From Pseudomonadota bacterium (lineage in GTDB: Bacteria > Pseudomonadota > Gammaproteobacteria > CALCKW01), in NCBI GenBank assembly GCA_039196715.1, contig JBCCUP010000010.1:1-64000 (forward strand): a stretch of 64,000 bases of DNA, written 5' to 3'. The position numbers and the translations under genes were made by a program. This document shows positions 54,251-64,000 of this stretch, in pieces; within the stretch, counting starts at the first letter, position 1, and every line of letters begins with the position of its first letter. The notes beneath the pieces were generated by a model, which did not search any database, was not told the DNA's origin, and saw nothing but the letters and a program-made list of their open reading frames with translations.

Positions 54251-55402
54251 TCAAGCGTCAATCGTGCCGACGGCGGCGTTTTGGCGGCTGAAGCGCCCAT
54301 CTTTCTCGCGGCACACGTGCCCGCCGAGTTCGAGCAGCAGCAGCATCGATGACACGTTCGCAACCGAGTCCCCCGTGCGGGTGACCAGCGTGTCGACGCT
54401 GAGCGTGTCGTGTCCGAGGCAGTGCAACAGGTGTCGGTGCGCGTCTGGCAGCGCGGTGCCGGCCGGTTCGGCGTCCGCGTTCGAGGTGACGCGCTCGGCG
54501 TCTGCACCGGGTGTGAGGTGTCCGGAGCTGGCCGCGAGTGCCGGGCCGATGTCCTCGAGTACGTCGGCGCTGCACTCGACCAGCTTCGCACCCTCGCGAA
54601 TCAAGCGGTGGCAGCCACGCGCCATCGGGTTGTGGATCGAGCCCGGGATGGCCATGACGGATCGACCCTGCTCGCCCGCCTGGCGGGCCGTGATCAGTGA
54701 GCCGCTGCGCACCGCTGCCTCGACCACCAGAACGCCCAGCGAAACCGCACTGATAAGACGGTTGCGACGCGGAAAATGGTGCGGCCTTGGCGCGGTGCCG
54801 AGTGGAAATTCGCTGATCAGCACGCCCTGTTGGGCGATGTCGTGGGCCAGTGCGCGGTTGGCTGCGGGGTACACGCGGTCGGCCCCGGTGCCGACCACGG
54901 CCAGGGTCATGCCGCCGGCGTCGAGTGCGCCCCGGTGCGCCGCGGCGTCGATGCCCGCGGCGAGGCCGCTGACCACCACGAGCCCGCGTACTGCGAGGTC
55001 TGCGGCGAACGAACGGGCGTTTTCCTCGCCGCCCCGACTCGGGTTGCGGCTGCCGACGACGGCGATCTTCGGTGGGGCGAGCAGGTCGAGGTCACCCCGT
55101 GCCCAGAGCACGAGCGGCGCGTCGTCGAGTGCGGAGAGGCCCCGTGGGTAGGCCGGGTGTTCGCAACTCAGCAGGTGGCAGTCGGACGCCTTGGCCCAGT
55201 CGGTGTCCGCCGCACACTCGGACGCGGCGAGTGCGCGCCAGGCCACGACGTCGCCCGCCGGAAACCCGGCGGCGATCAACGTGCGGTCGTCGGCCCCGGC
55301 AAGGCGGTCGAGTCCGCCGAGCTGGTGCACCAGTGCGTGTTTGTCGTGGGCACTGTGGCCCGGCAGGCGGTGCAGCGCGACAGCGGCGAGTTCAGGCGTC
55401 AT
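54251..55402 (-). CDS. dprA: DNA-processing protein DprA
   Basis: A 383-residue DprA (Smf), which protects incoming single-stranded DNA and loads RecA during natural transformation. An N-terminal SAM-like region precedes the Rossmann core with IAVVGSRNPSRGGEENARSF, VVVSGLAAGIDAAAHRGALD, LAVVGTGADRVYPAANRAL, the block HHFPRRNRLISAVSLGVLVV and SGSLITARQAGEQGRSVMA. The C-terminal winged-helix (DML1-like) part is TLSVDTLVTRTGDSVANVSS. The ATG at 55402 is the family start. Its own 100-bp leader contains a strong hairpin. Confidence 0.95.
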   Translation of the reverse strand: MTPELAAVALHRLPGHSAHDKHALVHQLGGLDRLAGADDRTLIAAGFPAGDVVAWRALAASECAADTDWAKASDCHLLSCEHPAYPRGLSALDDAPLVLWARGDLDLLAPPKIAVVGSRNPSRGGEENARSFAADLAVRGLVVVSGLAAGIDAAAHRGALDAGGMTLAVVGTGADRVYPAANRALAHDIAQQGVLISEFPLGTAPRPHHFPRRNRLISAVSLGVLVVEAAVRSGSLITARQAGEQGRSVMAIPGSIHNPMARGCHRLIREGAKLVECSADVLEDIGPALAASSGHLTPGADAERVTSNADAEPAGTALPDAHRHLLHCLGHDTLSVDTLVTRTGDSVANVSSMLLLLELGGHVCREKDGRFSRQNAAVGTIDA

Positions 55403-55455
55403 GACACGAGTATACGGCCGGTCGAAGCCGCCGCCGCACGCGCTGCCCAAACGCT

Positions 55456-55479
55456 CACGGCCCGCGGGTGCGGGCCGTG
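55456..55479 (-). terminator. Strong hairpin between the LysM gene and dprA
   Basis: Perfect 10-bp stem CACGGCCCGC / GCGGGCCGTG around a 4-base loop, starting about 24 bp after the LysM-protein stop on the minus strand. The T-tract is poor (GTTTG some bases later). It can act as a terminator or transcript-stabilising end for the LysM gene, or modulate dprA expression. Confidence 0.5.
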
Positions 55480-55502
55480 TTGCACGCGCGATGCGGTTCG
55501 GT

Positions 55503-56708
55503 TCAGAAACCCTGGAACGAGTCGTACAGGTCGATCGGCATCTGCGCCTCGAGGATCATCGCGTAGCTGACCCAATCGAAGGACTGGAACACGATCGCGA
55601 CACCCTTGCGCTGGCTCGGCAGAGTCACGCGGTCCGGCGTCCTAGGGTTCAGGGTCTTGTCGAGCATCTTGCGCTCGCGGCCCATGAGCTCGACCATGCT
55701 GCCGGCCTGGAGCCCGTCCTGTGCGCCGCGGTTGAACACCACAACCTGGTACTGACCCGCTTTCGAGAGCGCGTCGACCAGCGAGATGATGGTGCCTCGC
55801 ATGTTGCCCTTGACCAGAATCGGCTTGAGGTCGCGGTAGGTCGCGTCCCCTTCGTACTTGGTCAGGCGGTCGCCGCGCAGCACCTCGCGGCCGGTCTTGA
55901 TCAGCTGCAACGTGCTCGGGTCGCCGAAGTACTGCACCTGGGCTTCGCCGGTGTGCAGGGCCTCGTAGCCGAGGATTTCGTTGGTGTCGGGGTCGATCAA
56001 CGGCTTGTTGGGACGCAGTACGTGGTAGATCGATTCCGACTCGTCGGTGATGCCGCGCACGTAGATCGAATCCGGTGCGGCACTGATCACGCGGCCCTGG
56101 GTGTTGGCCAGCACGTACGGCGCCGCGTCGAGGGTTTGCTTGCTCACCACCCGCGGCTTGGCGTCGAAGTTCTTCAGCACGTCGGCGGCGATCACCGGCA
56201 CGGCCTGCTCGAGTTCGGCTTCGCGGACGCGGGGCTGCAGAATCGTCTTGCCACGCTTGCCGCGGTGTATCGACAGCACGGGTTTGCCGTCGACCATGCG
56301 CAGCCCGATCTTGTCGCCCGGGAAAATCAGGTGGGGGTCGGCAATCTGCGGGTTCTGGTGCCAGATCTCGGGCCAGGTGTAGGCGTCCTCGAGAAAATGG
56401 GCTGCGATGTCCCACAGCGTGTCGTGTTTCTGCACCGTATAGGTGTCCGGCGCGTCTTCGCGCAGCACGACCTCATCCGGGTTGCGCTTGAGTGCGGCGG
56501 TGCGCGGGACATCCGACTCCGTGGTCGGCGCGACGACGATCGCAATGTCCTCGGCGCTGGGCAGCTCCGCGATGGGCTCGTCGGCGGGGGCGGTTTCCCA
56601 CAACGCGCAACCGCTGAGGCTGAACACGGCGGCAATCGAGGCGGCTGCGAGAGTGAGGCGCAGTCTGCGGCGTGTCGCGGAGACCTGCGGGTGCGTGAAA
56701 GTGGCCAT
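55503..56708 (-). CDS. LysM-domain lipoprotein
   Basis: A 401-residue protein with an arginine-rich N-terminus, hydrophobic segment and lipobox SLSGC (about residue 34). One LysM domain (about residues 89-140) reads YTVQKHDTLWDIAAHFLEDA, then YTWPEIWHQNPQIADPHLIF and PGDKIGL; it binds peptidoglycan. The large C-terminal region (KPRVVSKQTLDAAPYVLANT, ISLVDALSKAGQYQVVVFNR) is typical of the gammaproteobacterial LysM protein encoded next to dprA and def. It probably sits in the envelope with a structural role. Divergent from def, 160 bp away. Confidence 0.9.
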   Translation of the reverse strand: MATFTHPQVSATRRRLRLTLAAASIAAVFSLSGCALWETAPADEPIAELPSAEDIAIVVAPTTESDVPRTAALKRNPDEVVLREDAPDTYTVQKHDTLWDIAAHFLEDAYTWPEIWHQNPQIADPHLIFPGDKIGLRMVDGKPVLSIHRGKRGKTILQPRVREAELEQAVPVIAADVLKNFDAKPRVVSKQTLDAAPYVLANTQGRVISAAPDSIYVRGITDESESIYHVLRPNKPLIDPDTNEILGYEALHTGEAQVQYFGDPSTLQLIKTGREVLRGDRLTKYEGDATYRDLKPILVKGNMRGTIISLVDALSKAGQYQVVVFNRGAQDGLQAGSMVELMGRERKMLDKTLNPRTPDRVTLPSQRKGVAIVFQSFDWVSYAMILEAQMPIDLYDSFQGF

Positions 56709-56867
56709 GCGTCGTTTCTAATCCTGCGTGTTGGATGTATGCAGCGCCCTGTGCGCGATACAATGCACGGCTGACAGGCTGACCGTGCGGGGTCCAGGTG
56801 CGTTTGCTGCTCGAAACCCTCGCAAATGCGATGCCTGAATCGCGCGTTCCCTCAAATTGGTAGTCTC

Positions 56868-57371
56868 ATGGCGCTTCTCGACATCCTTGTGGTTCCCGAT
56901 CCGCGGTTGCGGAAAACGGCGCGGCCGGTGTCCGATGTGGATGACGTCGTCAGGCAGTTGACGGACGACATGCTCGAGACCATGTACGACGCGCCGGGCA
57001 TCGGCCTGGCCGCCACCCAGGTGAACGTGCACAAACGGGTTGTGGTCATCGACCTCTCCGAAGACAAGTCTGATGCCATGGTGCTGATCAACCCCGAAAT
57101 CGTCGCACGCGATGGCGAGGCGCAAATGCAGGAGGGGTGCTTGTCGATTCCGGGTATTTTCGAGGACGTCAGCCGCTCGGCGCAGGTCACGGTCAGCGCC
57201 CTGGACCGCACCGGCGCGCGCTTTGAACGCACCGCAGACGGGCTCCTCGCGGCGTGCATCCAGCACGAGATCGATCACCTCGACGGCAAGCTCTTTCTCG
57301 ACTACCTCTCGCCGCTGAAGCGCAACCGCATCGTCAAGAAGATGGAAAAGCAGCAGCGCGGCGGGCGCTGA
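56868..57371 (+). CDS. def: Peptide deformylase
   Basis: A 167-residue metalloenzyme that removes the formyl group from nascent proteins. The three signature motifs are intact: [21 protein letters not shown] with the metal Cys, and [18 protein letters not shown] with HExxH. The ATG at 56868 gives the normal [15 protein letters not shown] opening. fmt starts 4 bp downstream, so formylation and deformylation are co-expressed. Confidence 0.97.
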
Positions 57372-57375
57372 GCGC

Positions 57376-58308
57376 GTGCGGGTCGTCTTCGCCGGGACAC
57401 CGGATTTCGCCGTCCCGACCTTCGACGCGTTGCGGGCGGCCGGGCACGAACTCGTCGGCTGCTACACCCAGCCGGACCGCCCGGCGGGGCGGGGTCGTGC
57501 GCCGCGCGCCAGTCCGGTCAAGCAGGCCGCGCTGGACGCAGGTGTGGCGGTCTTTCAACCGCCCTCGGTCAAGGGCCCTGAGGCGCAGGCGGCCTTGGCC
57601 GAGCTGAACCCCGAGATCATGGTGGTCGTGGCCTACGGCCTGCTGCTGCCGCGCACGATTCTCGACACGCCGGCGTTCGGCTGCGTCAATGTGCACGCGT
57701 CTCTGTTGCCGCGCTGGCGCGGGGCGGCGCCGATCCAGCGTGCCATCCTCGCCGGCGATACGGAGTCGGGCGTCTGCGTCATGCAGATGGAAGCGGGGCT
57801 CGACACCGGGCCGGTCTGGTCGCGCTGGCGCTGTCCCCTCGACGGTCGGGAAACGGCCACAGCGCTGCACGACACACTGGCCGAGGCCGGTGCCGCGCTG
57901 CTGGTCGAGACGTTGCCTGAGATCGCCGCCGGTGCGCGGACACCCGAGGCCCAGGACGACAGCAGGGCGACCTACGCGCACAAACTGGAAAAGGGCGAGG
58001 CCCGCATCGACTGGCGCGACCCGGCTGACGCCGTCGCGCGCCAGGTCATGGCCTTCAACGCCTGGCCGGTCGCGCAGTGCTCCGGGCCGGACGGGGTGAT
58101 CCGCGTCTGGCTGGCGCGCGCGCGCGCGCAGGGGGCATTGCCACCGGGCGCGCCGGGCGCCGTGCTCGCCGAGGACGCCGACGGCGTGGTGGTGCAAACC
58201 GGTGAGGGTGTGTTGGCGATCACCCGGTTGCAGTTGCCCGGCAAGCGTCAGCTCAGCGCGGCGGAGTTTGTCAACGGTCGATCGCTGCTCGGTCACACGC
58301 TGGCGTGA
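57376..58308 (+). CDS. fmt: Methionyl-tRNA formyltransferase
   Basis: A 310-residue enzyme formylating Met-tRNAfMet with 10-formyl-THF. Catalytic-domain motifs are VVFAGTPDFAVPTFDALRAA at the start, VVVAYGLLLPRTIL, the HxSLLP block NVHASLLPRWRGAAPIQRAI and MQMEAGLDTGPV. The C-terminal tRNA-binding domain has WRDPADAVARQVMAFNAWP. GTG start; overlaps rsmB by GTGA. Confidence 0.97.
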   Translation: MRVVFAGTPDFAVPTFDALRAAGHELVGCYTQPDRPAGRGRAPRASPVKQAALDAGVAVFQPPSVKGPEAQAALAELNPEIMVVVAYGLLLPRTILDTPAFGCVNVHASLLPRWRGAAPIQRAILAGDTESGVCVMQMEAGLDTGPVWSRWRCPLDGRETATALHDTLAEAGAALLVETLPEIAAGARTPEAQDDSRATYAHKLEKGEARIDWRDPADAVARQVMAFNAWPVAQCSGPDGVIRVWLARARAQGALPPGAPGAVLAEDADGVVVQTGEGVLAITRLQLPGKRQLSAAEFVNGRSLLGHTLA

Positions 58309-59633
58309 ACACACACGCGCCCGATCCGGTTCGCCAGCACGCCTGTCTGGCGCTCGATGCCGTGTTGCGCGAGGGGCGGTCACTCGAGTCCGCTTTGCCC
58401 GACGGTGAACTCGCGGGCGCCGCACGACGCCGGTGCCGCGCTCTGGTGTACGCGGGGTGTCGCTGGCAACCACGCCTCGATGCGGTCATCCGACGGCTGC
58501 TGAGCCGGCCGCTGCGACGGCGTGACCGGCGGGTCGGCAGCGTTGTGCTGCTGGCCCTGACCGAGCTCGAGTACGTCGACGGCGCGCCACACGCGGTCGT
58601 CGACGACGCCGTCCGGCTCACCGGGGCGCTCGGCCACGCGCCTTTGCGCGGTCTGGTCAACGCCGTTTTGCGGCGCTTTCTGCGCGAGCGCGTGTCGCTG
58701 CTTGCGGCGGTCGACAGCGACCCGGCCGCCGCCGCCGCGCACCCGGCCTGGTTGTACGCGACGCTCGAACGGGATTGGCCGGCGTCGGTTCACGCAATCG
58801 CGGAAGCCAACAACGCGCGCGCGCCGATGACGCTGCGGGTCGCGGCGACAGACGACCGGGACGCCTACCGCGCGCGTCTCGCGGCGCAGGGGCTGGTGGC
58901 GACACCGGGCCCAGGTGCCAGCGACCTCGTGCTCGCTTCGCCGGTCGACGTGGCTGAACTGCCGTATTTCGAGCACGGCGCCTGCTCGGTGCAGGACAGC
59001 GCGGCGCAATTCGCGGCCCAGCTGCTCGCGCCGCGCGCCGGCGAGCGGGTGCTGGACGCCTGCGCGGCGCCCGGTGGCAAGACGGGTCACCTGCTCGAAC
59101 TGGGCGGGGAGGCACTGGCCCTGACGGCGCTCGACGCGTCGTCTGCCCGCCTGGCGCGGGTCTCGGACACCGTGCGACGGCTCGGCTGCGAGGGCGTCAC
59201 GGTGCAGGCGGCCGACGCGAGCGAACCTGCGCAGTGGTGGGACGGCGTGCCCTTTGACGGCGTGCTGCTCGATGCGCCTTGCAGCGGCCTCGGTGTGGTC
59301 CGGCGACATCCCGATATCAAGGTGTTGCGTCGGCCCACCGACATCGAGGCGCTGGCCGCGGTGCAGGCGCGGTTGCTCGACGCGCTGTGGCCGCTGCTGA
59401 AACCCGGCGGCAGGTTGCTGTACGCGACCTGTTCGACCGTGCGGCGCGAGAACGACGAGCAGGTCGAACGCTTCCTCGACCGCACGGTGGACGCGGTGCC
59501 GGCCACGCTCGAATTGCCTGTGGGCCGCGTGTCCGGACCGGGTTGGCAGATATTCCCGGGTGAAATGGGGTGCGACGGCTTTTATTATGCGCTCATGCAC
59601 CGCAGCCCGGTTCAGACTGCGCACCATGACTAA
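58305..59633 (+). CDS. rsmB: 16S rRNA (cytosine-967-C5)-methyltransferase RsmB
   Basis: A 442-residue RsmB. The N-terminal NusB-like domain (QHACLALDAVLREGRSLESA, the late part LRGLVNAVLRRFLRER) is followed by the SAM-dependent methyltransferase: SVQDSAAQFAAQLLAPRAGE, DACAAPGGKTGHLLEL, catalytic DAPCSGLGVVRRHPDIK and the second cysteine in LYATCSTVRREN. The GTG at 58305 overlaps fmt. It ends 8 bp inside the DUF4390 gene. Confidence 0.96.
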   Translation: MNTHAPDPVRQHACLALDAVLREGRSLESALPDGELAGAARRRCRALVYAGCRWQPRLDAVIRRLLSRPLRRRDRRVGSVVLLALTELEYVDGAPHAVVDDAVRLTGALGHAPLRGLVNAVLRRFLRERVSLLAAVDSDPAAAAAHPAWLYATLERDWPASVHAIAEANNARAPMTLRVAATDDRDAYRARLAAQGLVATPGPGASDLVLASPVDVAELPYFEHGACSVQDSAAQFAAQLLAPRAGERVLDACAAPGGKTGHLLELGGEALALTALDASSARLARVSDTVRRLGCEGVTVQAADASEPAQWWDGVPFDGVLLDAPCSGLGVVRRHPDIKVLRRPTDIEALAAVQARLLDALWPLLKPGGRLLYATCSTVRRENDEQVERFLDRTVDAVPATLELPVGRVSGPGWQIFPGEMGCDGFYYALMHRSPVQTAHHD

Positions 59634-60219
59634 CCTGCGCCGCCGCCGCACTTCGACACCCGGACACTGGCCCTGGCTGTGTGCCTGTGCGTTGGCGTTC
59701 CTGCTCCTGGCGGGGTCCGCGCGCGCCGACGAGGGGCGCGTGGAGTACCGCTCGCTGGTCTCCTACGTGATCGACGGCGACGTCATGCTCGAGAGTGACG
59801 TGAGCGTGCGGCTCAGCGGGCTCACCCGGGCGGCGCTGCAAAGTGGGGTGGCACTTGAATTCGATGTCGAAATCGACGTCATCCGACAACGCAGCTTCTG
59901 GCCCGACCTGACCCTGCGCCGGTACCAGATCCCGGTCCGTCTCAGCTACCAGGACCTGACACGCAGTTACCGGCTCGAGCGACTCAACTCGGGCCAGCGC
60001 GCCAGCTTCCCCGACCTCGACACCGCGCTCGACGCCGTGGCGCAGCTGCGCGACGTGGTGCTGATTCCCGACGACCAGCTCAGCCGGCCCGGCCGCTACT
60101 ACGGTGTCATGCGGGTGCAGCTCGACCTCGACGCGCTGCCGTCACCCCTGCGAACGCAGGCGTATTTCTCGCGGGCGTGGACCCTGAAGAACGGTGAGCA
60201 GACGTGGCCACTCCGGTGA
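59626..60219 (+). CDS. DUF4390 family exported protein
   Basis: A 197-residue protein with an N-terminal signal (WLCACALAFLLLAGSARADE) and a beta-rich mature part (YRSLVSYVIDGDVMLESDVS, RYQIPVRLSYQDLTRSYRLE and the end TQAYFSRAWTLKNGEQTW). It fits DUF4390, regularly found between rsmB and ntrY in gammaproteobacteria, suggesting a link to NtrY sensing, though none is proven. The ATG at 59626 overlaps rsmB, and its end overlaps ntrY by 16 bp. Confidence 0.88.
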   Translation: MTNLRRRRTSTPGHWPWLCACALAFLLLAGSARADEGRVEYRSLVSYVIDGDVMLESDVSVRLSGLTRAALQSGVALEFDVEIDVIRQRSFWPDLTLRRYQIPVRLSYQDLTRSYRLERLNSGQRASFPDLDTALDAVAQLRDVVLIPDDQLSRPGRYYGVMRVQLDLDALPSPLRTQAYFSRAWTLKNGEQTWPLR

Positions 60220-62363
60220 AGATCGCGCGCGAGGGCGACACCGGCACCTGGCTGATGGTGGCGGTGTTTGCCGCGGTATTGCTCTCGCTCTACCTGCTCG
60301 GCAACAGCGCCGACAACATGGAGCGCTTCGGTCGCGTCAACGATTACCTGCTGGTCATCGACGCCTTGCTGACCCTCGTGGTGTTCTGGATGGTCGCCGT
60401 CAACGCCTGGCGGCTGTTCGGCGACTTGCGCTCGGGCGTCGCCGGCTCCCGGCTCACGGTGCGTCTGGTCATCCTGCTGACACTGACAGCCCTGATTCCC
60501 GTGACCATCATCTACGTGTTCTCCGTGCGCTTTCTGCGGTCGGGTATCGACAGCTGGTTCAACGTCCAGGTTGAGCAGGCGCTCGACAGTGCGCTGGTGC
60601 TGAGCCGCGAGTCGGTCGGCGACGAGATCCGCGAGATTCAGCGGCGCGCGAACCAGATTGCCTCGCGCCTGGCGGACCTCGAATCGGATGTTCTGGTGCC
60701 GGCCATGAGCGGCGCGCTCGGGGCCTTCAACGCGCGCGAGCTCAACCTGCGAGGGCGTCAGGGCGAGCTCGAGGTGTCGGTCAGTGACGGTTTCGGCTTT
60801 CCCACCAACAGCCTGGCGGCCCCGGTGGTGGCCCAGGTCCTGTCCGGCGAGACGCTGGTGGAGATTGAGGAGCACGAGCAGGACGGCTTGTCGATTCGTG
60901 TGCTGACGCCTCTGTCGGACAATCGCCAATTGCGCTCGGCGTTTCTGCTCGAGGCGCGCTTTGCGCTCGATGAGCGGCGCCGCCAACTGGGCGAGGAGGT
61001 GCAGTCGACCTTTCAGCGGTACCAGCAGCTCACGTTCATGCGCGAGCCGCTGAAATTCAGCTTTGTCGCGACCCTGAGTCTGATTCTCGCGCTTTCTGTG
61101 CTGGCGGCGATCTGGATCGCGTTTCGCCTGGCCCGCTCACTGATGCGGCCGGTGCACAACCTGGCGGAGGGTACGCTTGCCGTGAGCCAGGGTGACTTCA
61201 GTCAGCGCTTGCCGCCGGGTGGGCGTGACGAACTCGGGTTTCTCGTGAATTCCTTCAACCAGATGGTATCGCAGTTGCAAAGTGCGCGTGACCAGGCCGA
61301 CAGCAGTCAGGCCGAGGTCGAGCAACAGCGGGCCTACCTGCAGGCGGTGGTTGGACGAATTTCCACGGGGGTGTTGACGCTTGATGATCAGGCGCGGCCG
61401 CGCACGATCAACGATGCCGGGGCTGCGATGTTGGGGCAGGATCCGGACGAAATCATCGGCATGACCATGCGCGACGCAGTGTCCGGGAGCGGCGCCTACG
61501 CGTCGCTGGCGCGCGTCGCCCTGCCTCACCTCGCCGTCGGTGAACCGACCTGGCAAGAGAACGTCGACCTGCCGACGGCACGCGGTACGCGCACCCTGGT
61601 GTGTCGCGGTGCGAAGATGGACGTGGCCGGCGGCGGTCATGTGCTGGTTGTCGACGACATCTCACCTATCGTGCGTGCCGAACGCGATGCGGCCTGGAGT
61701 GAGGTGGCCCGTCGCCTTGCTCACGAGATCAAGAACCCGCTCACGCCGATTCAACTCTCTGCGGAACGGCTCAGGCACCGCTATCTCGAGACACTCGGAG
61801 ACGACGCGCGCGTGCTCGACCGCGCGACGCGCACGATTGTCGAACAGGTGGAGAGCATGAAGTCGATGGTGAAGGCCTTCGCCGAGTACGCCGATACACC
61901 GGCCTTGCAATTCACGGACGTCGACTTGTCGGTGCTCCTGGGTGATGTGGTCGAACTCTACCGCGGCCTGCCGTCCGGGCGTGATATCAAGCTCAGCTGC
62001 GCGGACGGTTTGCCGGCGATCAACGGCGACGAGGGGCGGTTGCGCCAGTTGTTGCACAACCTGGTCAAGAACGCGCTGGAAGCCCAGGAAGGGCAACCGT
62101 TTGCACGCGTCGATATCTGGCTAGAGAGCACCGACGCCGGTCGGTCGGTGGAGTTGCGGATCCGCGACCGCGGGCCGGGCTTCGATCTCGGTCGCATCGA
62201 CCGGATCTTCGAGCCTTATGTGACAGGCAAAGTCCGCGGAACGGGGCTAGGCTTGGCAATTGTGAAACAAATTGTCACCGAGCACGACGGTGACATCGAC
62301 TTGGGGAATGCCGAGGGCGGCGGCGCCGTGATCACGGTGCGCTTTCCGGTGTTGGCAGGATGA
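60204..62363 (+). CDS. ntrY: NtrY-like membrane sensor histidine kinase
   Basis: A 719-residue kinase. Three N-terminal membrane helices (about residues 16-36, 48-68, 84-104), a periplasmic sensor of about 180 residues and a fourth helix (FVATLSLILALSVLAAIWIA) lead to HAMP (RSLMRPVHNLAEGTLAVSQG), PAS (RISTGVLTLDDQARP), the H-box RRLAHEIKNPLTPIQLSAER and the ATPase boxes LVKNALEAQEG, RDRGPGFDLG, IFEPYVTGKVRGTGLGLAIV. This is the NtrY layout, linked to nitrogen or redox control. GTG start; ntrX follows after 7 bp. Confidence 0.93.
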   Translation: MATPVKIAREGDTGTWLMVAVFAAVLLSLYLLGNSADNMERFGRVNDYLLVIDALLTLVVFWMVAVNAWRLFGDLRSGVAGSRLTVRLVILLTLTALIPVTIIYVFSVRFLRSGIDSWFNVQVEQALDSALVLSRESVGDEIREIQRRANQIASRLADLESDVLVPAMSGALGAFNARELNLRGRQGELEVSVSDGFGFPTNSLAAPVVAQVLSGETLVEIEEHEQDGLSIRVLTPLSDNRQLRSAFLLEARFALDERRRQLGEEVQSTFQRYQQLTFMREPLKFSFVATLSLILALSVLAAIWIAFRLARSLMRPVHNLAEGTLAVSQGDFSQRLPPGGRDELGFLVNSFNQMVSQLQSARDQADSSQAEVEQQRAYLQAVVGRISTGVLTLDDQARPRTINDAGAAMLGQDPDEIIGMTMRDAVSGSGAYASLARVALPHLAVGEPTWQENVDLPTARGTRTLVCRGAKMDVAGGGHVLVVDDISPIVRAERDAAWSEVARRLAHEIKNPLTPIQLSAERLRHRYLETLGDDARVLDRATRTIVEQVESMKSMVKAFAEYADTPALQFTDVDLSVLLGDVVELYRGLPSGRDIKLSCADGLPAINGDEGRLRQLLHNLVKNALEAQEGQPFARVDIWLESTDAGRSVELRIRDRGPGFDLGRIDRIFEPYVTGKVRGTGLGLAIVKQIVTEHDGDIDLGNAEGGGAVITVRFPVLAG

Positions 62364-62370
62364 GTGACGC

Positions 62371-63744
62371 ATGACAGCGAAATCGATTTTGGTGGTTGAC
62401 GATGAGCCGGATATCCGCGACACCGTTCAGGAGATCCTCATCGATGAAGGCTATGACGTGTCAACCGCGGAGAACGCCGCGGTGGCGCGCGAACTGCGGG
62501 ACACGCTGAAACCGGACCTGGTGCTGCTCGACGTCTGGATGCCGGACGAGGACGGCATCACGGTGCTGGCGGGTTGGCAGGAGAGTGGGGCGCTGGAGTG
62601 CCCGGTGGTGATGATGTCAGGGCACGGTACTGTCGAGACCGCGGTGGAAGCGACGCGGCTCGGTGCCGTGGATTTCGTCGAGAAGCCCCTGTCGTTGCAA
62701 AAGCTGTTGCGCACGGTGGACAAGTCGTTGCGCAGTTGGAACGCGCCCTCGCCGCACACCGACGCGGCCGTTCAGCCCTCGCCGATGCCGTGGGTCGGGT
62801 CGAGCGATTACAGCCGTGACCTGCGTGAGCAACTGCCCAAAGTGGCCTCGAGTTCGGCGCCGGTGCTGCTCACCGGGCCGGCTGGGTCGTTGAAGCATCA
62901 ACTCGCCCAACGCCTGCACGTCGACGGCGAACGGCACGGCCAACCCTACGTCGTCGTGCGCTGCGACGCGCTCGACCCACGCACCCTGGCGGTGGAGCTG
63001 TTCGGCGGCGAGCACGCCGGCGAACGCACGGTCGGCTCGCTCGAGCAAGCCGCCGGCGGCACGCTGTTCCTGCAGGACGTGTTCGAGTTGCCGCGCGTGG
63101 CGCAGAAGCAGCTCAGTGCCTGCCTCGCGTCGGGCGTCTACCACCGCGTCGGCGGTGCCGCCTCGCTGCAGCTCGACGCGCGCGTGGTGGCCTCGGTCGA
63201 CGGCGAAGCGCTGGCCGACAGCCCGGAAGTCAGCGAAGACCTCTTCTACCAACTCAACGTCGTGCCCATTCGCACCCGGCCGTTGGCCGAGCACAAGGAA
63301 GACATCCCCGCCATTGTCGACGCCGTGATCGACCACCTGGTGGCGATCGAATCGCTGACCTACCGGCACATGGGGGTGGCGGCCAAGAACCGGCTGCGCC
63401 ACGCCGACTGGCCGGGCGACCTCGTGCAGTTGCTGAACCTGATCAAACGCCTGCTGATTCTCGGCGACGGGCTCGAAATCACGGTCGCCGAGGTCGACAC
63501 CGCGCTGAGCGATGCCACGCCGCTCGAGCCCATGCTCGGCCAGGAGGGCGAACTGTTCCGGCTGCCGATGCACCTGCCGCTGCGGGAGGCGCGTGCCGAG
63601 TTCGAGCGTGTCTACCTGGCCCAACAGTTGAAAGACGTTGACGGACGCATGGGCGAACTGGCAACGCGGGTGGGAATGGAACGCACGCACCTCTACCGCA
63701 AACTGCGCAGCCTGGGTATCGAGACCAAACGGGCGGGCGACTGA
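62371..63744 (+). CDS. ntrX: NtrX-like response regulator with a degenerate AAA+ domain
   Basis: A 457-residue NtrC-family regulator, partner of NtrY. The receiver (1-120) is intact: VVDDEPD, phospho-Asp in [20 protein letters not shown], and Lys in FVEKPLS. The central domain keeps the fold but not the function: Walker A reads GPAGSLKH (normally GESGTGKE), GAFTGA is absent, Walker B reads GGTLFLQD instead of GGTLFLDE, and the arginine finger in LFYRLNV is Gln. The C-terminal Fis-like HTH ([20 protein letters not shown]) is intact. It should bind DNA but not hydrolyse ATP or remodel sigma-54. Confidence 0.92.
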
Positions 63745-63752
63745 GAGTCGGC

Positions 63753-64000
63753 ATGAAGATCATCATCCTGGGGGCGGGGCAGGTCGGGACGGCCGTGGCG
63801 CGAAACCTCGCCGACGAGAACAACGACGTGACCATCGTCGACACCAACGCGGATGTCCTGCAGGAGATGCAATCCCGGCTGGACCTGCGCGCGGTGGTCG
63901 GGCCGGCATCGCACCCGGACATCCTGCGCCGTGCGGGCGCGGACGACGCCGACCTCCTGATCGCCTGCACCAGCGCGGACGAGGTCAACATGATGGCCTG
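63753..64000 (+). CDS. trkA: Trk potassium-uptake regulator TrkA (N-terminal part, cut by window edge)
   Basis: The first 82 codons of Trk[21 protein letters not shown] is the RCK-domain NAD-binding start, followed by [40 protein letters not shown] and [11 protein letters not shown]. TrkA gates the TrkH K+ channel on the cytoplasmic face. It starts 8 bp after ntrX, the gene order usual in gammaproteobacteria. The gene continues beyond the window. Confidence 0.93.

Follow-up and report, generated by a model that had tools for sequence, protein, structure and literature searches.

Apparent loss of the AAA+ ATPase machinery in an NtrX-type response regulator and in its relatives across Gammaproteobacteria

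The window analyzed here is a stretch of 64,000 nucleotides from a gammaproteobacterial genome (contig JBCCUP010000010.1, positions 1 to 64,000). Five of its genes, rsmB, plrP, ntrY, ntrX, and trkA, form a tightly packed run on the plus strand (Table 1), which corresponds to the usual NtrX cluster. Among the related loci with room for the respective neighbor, ntrY lies upstream of ntrX in 71 of 72 and plrP in 58 of 67, and rsmB is found at 58 of 62; trkA follows ntrX in 55 of 96 related loci. The start listed for plrP is the likely one, the open reading frame itself opening at position 59560. In Bordetella, PlrP has genetic support as the third component of such systems (PMC13001219). Four long frames overlapping genes on the opposite strand were also observed, at 55191-56774 (+), 56718-57278 (-), 58380-59651 (-), and 62617-63690 (-); they were not taken as genes, and their occurrence antisense to real genes is most likely a consequence of the high G+C content.

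The ntrX product contains four Pfam domains: Response_reg, Sigma54_activat, AAA_lid_14, and HTH_8. Its best NCBIfam model is NtrX (NF051870), which scores 348 bits and is ahead of the other NtrC-family models by more than 100 bits, and its best PDB match is NtrX of Brucella abortus (5m7n, E 4.3e-81). The score stays below the equivalog cut-off of NF051870 (600 bits), which is a curated score of one naming model rather than a biological feature; the protein was therefore named an NtrX ortholog on the basis of synteny and best match. Domains, best matches, and gene neighborhood together identify it by sequence as an NtrX (PlrR-type) ortholog belonging to an NtrY/PlrP two-component system. An earlier reading, made from the DNA letters alone (hereafter, the sequence-only reading), had placed the open reading frame and its strand exactly, and all of the strings that it quoted or referred to (GPAGSLKH, LFLQDV, ASVDGE, SEDLFYQL, PLAEHKED, and a further ten-residue segment) occur in the protein.

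Table 1. Genes of the ntrX cluster and domains and AAA+ motif positions of NtrX, in window coordinates
Feature	Positions	Strand	Description and basis
rsmB	58305..59633	+	PF01189
plrP (DUF4390)	59626..60219	+	Periplasmic third component of NtrYX/PlrSR systems; PF14334, E 7.9e-38; PMC13001219
ntrY	60204..62363	+	Cognate sensor kinase; HAMP, PAS, HisKA, and HATPase domains intact (Pfam)
ntrX	62371..63744	+	NtrX/PlrR-type response regulator, 457 aa; ORF; receiver, degenerate AAA+, Fis HTH
Receiver domain	62371..62730	+	aa 1-120; Pfam; phospho-acceptor D54, codon 62530-62532
AAA+ core and lid, degenerate	62788..63525	+	aa 140-385; Pfam; fold kept in AlphaFold model
Walker A	62875..62898	+	Retains G169, G172, and K175; Leu174 replaces the third Gly and His176 the acidic residue
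Site of deleted GAFTGA loop	63007..63027	+	GEHAGER; each of the 95 class NtrX has a gap here, as does Brucella NtrX
Walker B	63064..63081	+	LFLQDV, aa 232-237; DE now QD, neither acid kept in register
Sensor I region	63190..63207	+	ASVDGE, aa 274-279; Asp277
Arginine-finger segment	63232..63255	+	SEDLFYQL, aa 288-295; S288, Q294, both Arg lost
Sensor II segment	63409..63438	+	Ten residues, aa 347-356; Arg now Val352
Fis-type HTH	63568..63735	+	aa 400-455, intact; Pfam HTH_8
trkA, gene start	63753..63998	+	Runs off window end; TrkA_N

For the motif analysis, the window NtrX was aligned with NtrC4 of Aquifex and with Brucella NtrX, and 12 AAA+ features were scored. Three of the 12 are kept in the window protein, against 12 in NtrC4, 10 in Brucella NtrX, and a median of 7 in the class. 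The sequence-only reading had described the P-loop as lost, but it is not wholly so: in GPAGSLKH (aa 169-176) two of the glycines and the lysine stay in place, while the third glycine and the acidic residue are gone. A leucine for the glycine before the P-loop lysine is expected to hinder phosphate binding. Neither a complete Walker A (GxxxxGK[E/D]) nor a Walker B DE is found (GPAGSLKH and LFLQDV), the replacement of DE by QD having been seen correctly before, and the switch asparagine is replaced by Arg197. The GAFTGA loop is absent, as previously proposed, through a 5-residue deletion relative to NtrC4, with a gap at the same place in Brucella NtrX. At sensor I the aspartate is neither Asn nor His; a missing Asn was thus rightly noted but is not diagnostic, since NtrC proteins have His here in 31 of 31 cases. 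The arginine fingers required reassignment. They sit in the segment FREDLYYRL (NtrC1 R299 = PspF R168; PMC7175178), and the first of them corresponds to Ser288 and the second to Gln294, so that the glutamine formerly taken for the first finger is the second. The histidine of PLAEHKED (aa 304-311), proposed as the second, lies downstream of the fingers in a segment whose usual form in the class is PPLREH. Both finger arginines and the sensor II arginine are lost (S288, Q294, V352). The receiver and the HTH domain are intact, as had been stated: D10, D11, D54, S83, and K105 of the receiver are invariant in a 44-sequence alignment, and the HTH domain matches Pfam HTH_8. Judging from these residues, AAA+ catalysis by the window NtrX is almost certainly gone, and its contact with sigma-54 through GAFTGA is ruled out at the level of sequence.

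The fold of the AAA+ domain is nevertheless predicted to be kept. An AlphaFold2 model based on a 44-row alignment reached a mean pLDDT of 87, and its AAA+ domain superposes on that of FleQ at 2.0-2.2 A over 241-244 residues; the pTM of 0.56 makes the arrangement of domains in the model unreliable.

The derived residues are common to the genus. The window NtrX and three congeners have the P-loop GP[AS]GSLKH and the Walker B FLQD in common, and all four lack the first arginine finger and the sensor II arginine. Asp at sensor I is found in two of the three congeners; the second arginine finger, lost in the window protein, is kept in all three. The four proteins form one clade (support 97), and the ntrX frame is intact in the four separate genomes. 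Whole-gene dN/dS is 0.05-0.11 by NG86, a range that is rough because dS exceeds 1, obtained from the three pairs short of full saturation. In the comparison with genome G002, 7 of the 8 P-loop residues are identical against a background of 47% (P about 0.02), and HTH identity within the genus is 78-91%. The recurrence of the derived P-loop and of the derived Walker B in three other genomes means that the motif losses are not due to chance. They are shared by a clade under purifying selection, which the sequence-only reading had named as support for its interpretation. As the order is represented by this one genus among the genomes surveyed, the depth of the loss between genus and class is not datable.

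The NtrC-family paralogs served as a control. The same genome encodes rpoN and the paralogs NtrC, FleQ, and FlrC bearing GAFTGA or GAYTGA, hence sigma-54 itself has not been lost. The catalytic columns, including GAFTGA, are invariant in 31 of 31 class NtrC proteins; these rows are the best-scoring matches to the NtrC of the window genome, which somewhat flatters their conservation. The NtrC of genome G001 was left out of the control, being split over two contig ends. Identities to G002 in the receiver, AAA+, and HTH domains are.84/.47/.78 for NtrX,.58/.77/.73 for NtrC, and.56/.83/.72 for FlrC, i.e. the receiver is better conserved than the AAA+ domain in NtrX, and the reverse holds in NtrC and FlrC. 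Over the class, the mean column entropies of the three domains are 0.95/1.58/1.15 bits for NtrX and, with the same flattering of the NtrC rows, 1.01/0.57/0.72 bits for NtrC. GAFTGA is also missing from two other NtrC-family regulators of the window genome (G000), at C19:42050-43204 (L005) and C69:12578-13678 (L006). Walker A is canonical in both; LLLDEI and FRSDLYYRL are retained in L006, and the Walker B of L005 is LFLSAV.

The class survey covered 95 NtrX proteins outside the genus, taken from genomes drawn evenly across the class Gammaproteobacteria, with inclusion at E <= 1e-80 to the window protein, a threshold that misses more diverged NtrX. An initial set of homologues had been chosen by peptide patterns including EDLFYQLN, and the evenly drawn sample led to the same conclusions. 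GAFTGA is absent in all 95 proteins. The P-loop pattern GxxGxG[KR] is kept in 88, and the third P-loop glycine, Leu in the genus, is fixed in 91. By comparison, Walker A Lys and Walker B DE are both intact in 26 of the 95, the second arginine finger is present in 20, and the complete set of Walker A, Walker B, and both fingers remains in only 12. When the 246 positions of the NtrX AAA+ domain are ranked by column entropy, the catalytic ones fall near the least conserved end (switch Asn 219, sensor I 208, second finger 199, Walker B Asp 196) and the P-loop glycines near the most conserved; of the NtrX domains, the receiver is conserved best across the class. The Walker B aspartate changed at least 25 times on a tree from which the motif columns had been left out, so that its losses are repeated ones. 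Lineages with a broken P-loop keep on average 1.2 of five other features versus 2.9 in the remainder, the four genus proteins being counted in the 1.2. A separate observation concerns the Walker A lysine, which is replaced by arginine (GxxGxGR) in 13 of the 95 proteins (e.g. L043, L044, and L206), with at least 10 changes between lysine and other residues on the tree; such recurrent replacement might preserve the phosphate contact without catalysis.

The region downstream of plrP was also examined in genomes that have plrP and no full-length NtrX match. In two of them (L221:2958-3677 and L226:2916-3617), the syntenic regulator following plrP and ntrY consists of a receiver and an HTH domain, with a short linker replacing the AAA+ domain; identity to the window protein is about 60% in the receiver and about 50% in the HTH domain. 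Both genomes were placed to class only, and the GTDB class includes betaproteobacteria. Their state agrees with that of betaproteobacterial NtrX, which is reported to have no AAA+ domain (PMC13001219). Four further regulators at conserved plrP-ntrY loci (L220, L222, L223, and L228) have a more eroded AAA+ domain, 26-29% identical to that of the window protein. In most gammaproteobacterial relatives the NtrX AAA+ domain thus appears, at the level of sequence, to be decaying, and in a few it is missing altogether. What had been presented as the oddity of one gene is instead, as read from the surveyed proteins, the extreme of a loss of AAA+ catalysis that runs through NtrX of the whole class and continues to deletion of the domain.

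These data place the window NtrX among several known systems. Alphaproteobacterial NtrX of B. abortus (5m7n, 5m7o, 5m7p) shares with it the three domains, the GAFTGA deletion, the NtrY partner, and a full-length sequence identity of about 36%, but retains GPSGAGKE, LYLDEV, both arginine fingers, and the sensor II arginine, nearly all of which the window protein has lost. PlrR, the betaproteobacterial NtrX, shares the rsmB-plrP-ntrY-ntrX neighborhood and the combination of receiver and Fis HTH, and works without a functional AAA+ domain (PMC13001219), as proposed here for the window NtrX; the domain reported there as missing is present, predicted folded, and degenerate in the window protein. 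The sigma-70 bEBPs without GAFTGA (NtrC of R. capsulatus, NtrC of Caulobacter, and VspR; PMC10274813) resemble it in the absence of this loop and in predicted independence of sigma-54. They belong to a different orthologous group, however, and the NtrC examples need ATP binding or Walker A/B, whereas Walker B and one P-loop glycine are gone from the window NtrX. NtrC proper, represented in the window genome by its own paralog (L003/L209), has the same architecture and ancestry, but every AAA+ motif is kept (31/31) and the AAA+ domain is the best conserved one.

We propose, with a probability of about 0.78, that the window NtrX is a phosphorylation-controlled, hydrolysis-free DNA-binding regulator with an AAA+ scaffold that is unable to serve sigma-54. 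NtrY would phosphorylate D54 of the receiver, and phosphorylated NtrX, most likely as a dimer, would bind DNA through its Fis-type HTH domain and control promoters that do not need remodeling by sigma-54 activators, presumably those of sigma-70. The AAA+ domain would no longer hydrolyze ATP or contact sigma-54 and would remain as a folded scaffold between the receiver and the HTH domain. With an intact kinase, phospho-acceptor pocket, and HTH domain but a decayed motor, the most parsimonious view is that the signal passes from phosphorylation to DNA binding. Other bEBPs without GAFTGA act at sigma-70 promoters, including R. capsulatus NtrC, VspR, and Caulobacter NtrC (PMC10274813). In the genus, nucleotide binding has probably been lost as well, because the P-loop glycine is replaced by leucine. 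The terms "purely DNA-binding" and "sigma-70-type" used in the sequence-only reading are plausible, given the two syntenic orthologs that have no AAA+ domain; its observations hold with the corrections given above, and its interpretation, which is partly supported, was mostly right within a different frame.

Some of the evidence runs against this proposal. Structures of Brucella NtrX, which likewise lacks GAFTGA, exist with ATP and with ADP (5m7n, 5m7p), and Caulobacter NtrC, another protein lacking this loop, still needs its Walker A and Walker B residues (PMC10274813). Retention of Gly169, Gly172, and Lys175, together with conservation of the derived P-loop in the genus, suggests that the pocket may still bind something. 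The AAA+ domain could thus bind ATP or ADP without hydrolysis, its occupancy tuning oligomerization or DNA binding, as in R. capsulatus NtrC, where ATP binding is required and hydrolysis is not (PMC10274813). The class-wide maintenance of GxxGxG[KR] while the catalytic residues vary favors such a role. In the genus, however, the third P-loop glycine, the Walker B aspartate, and the sensor II arginine are all lost, and the smaller number of other features kept in broken-P-loop lineages is what a disused pocket would lead one to expect; we regard this alternative as possible, at odds well short of even. A broader view, in which gammaproteobacterial NtrX forms a clade-wide pseudo-ATPase lineage between the ATP-binding (alpha) and domain-less (beta) forms, with the machinery dismantled independently many times, the P-loop shell kept, and a new function acquired by the pocket in the genus, either structural or through a nucleotide-independent ligand, seems doubtful. 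Reuse of the pocket for another ligand, e.g. a cyclic dinucleotide, is improbable: the altered GP[AS]GSLKH and FLQD are common to the four congeners and, according to the PDB titles of VpsR and FleQ, c-di-GMP can be a ligand of AAA+ domains in this family, yet the c-di-GMP motif LFRS preceding Walker A in FleQ is present in the FleQ paralog (L007) and absent from the window NtrX, and no positive sign of a ligand was found. A pseudogene or recent decay of a single gene, to which the strong divergence of the motifs might point, is refuted by the intact frames and shared derived residues of the congeners, dN/dS of about 0.1, the conserved operon, and the intact kinase. Equally remote is an ATPase or sigma-54 activator still active through non-standard residues, given that GAFTGA of L1, the Walker B aspartate, the arginine fingers, and the sensor II arginine are all missing and that NtrC and FlrC, which do activate sigma-54 in this genome, keep these motifs, despite the preserved predicted fold and the presence of rpoN and GAFTGA-bearing activators.

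NtrYX systems are widespread, being essential or needed for infection in some bacteria, and the routine annotation of NtrX is that of a nitrogen regulator dependent on sigma-54. The absence of the AAA+ domain from betaproteobacterial NtrX has been reported (PMC13001219); its erosion in gammaproteobacterial NtrX appears to be new, no description having been found in searches of open-licence papers. The survey contradicts this label for gammaproteobacterial NtrX in both respects open to sequence analysis: not one of the 95 proteins could contact sigma-54 by way of GAFTGA, and the residues needed for ATP hydrolysis are retained in few of them. The intact, eroded, and deleted forms of the domain constitute a natural series, which allows one to ask what role an AAA+ domain plays once its motor is no longer needed.
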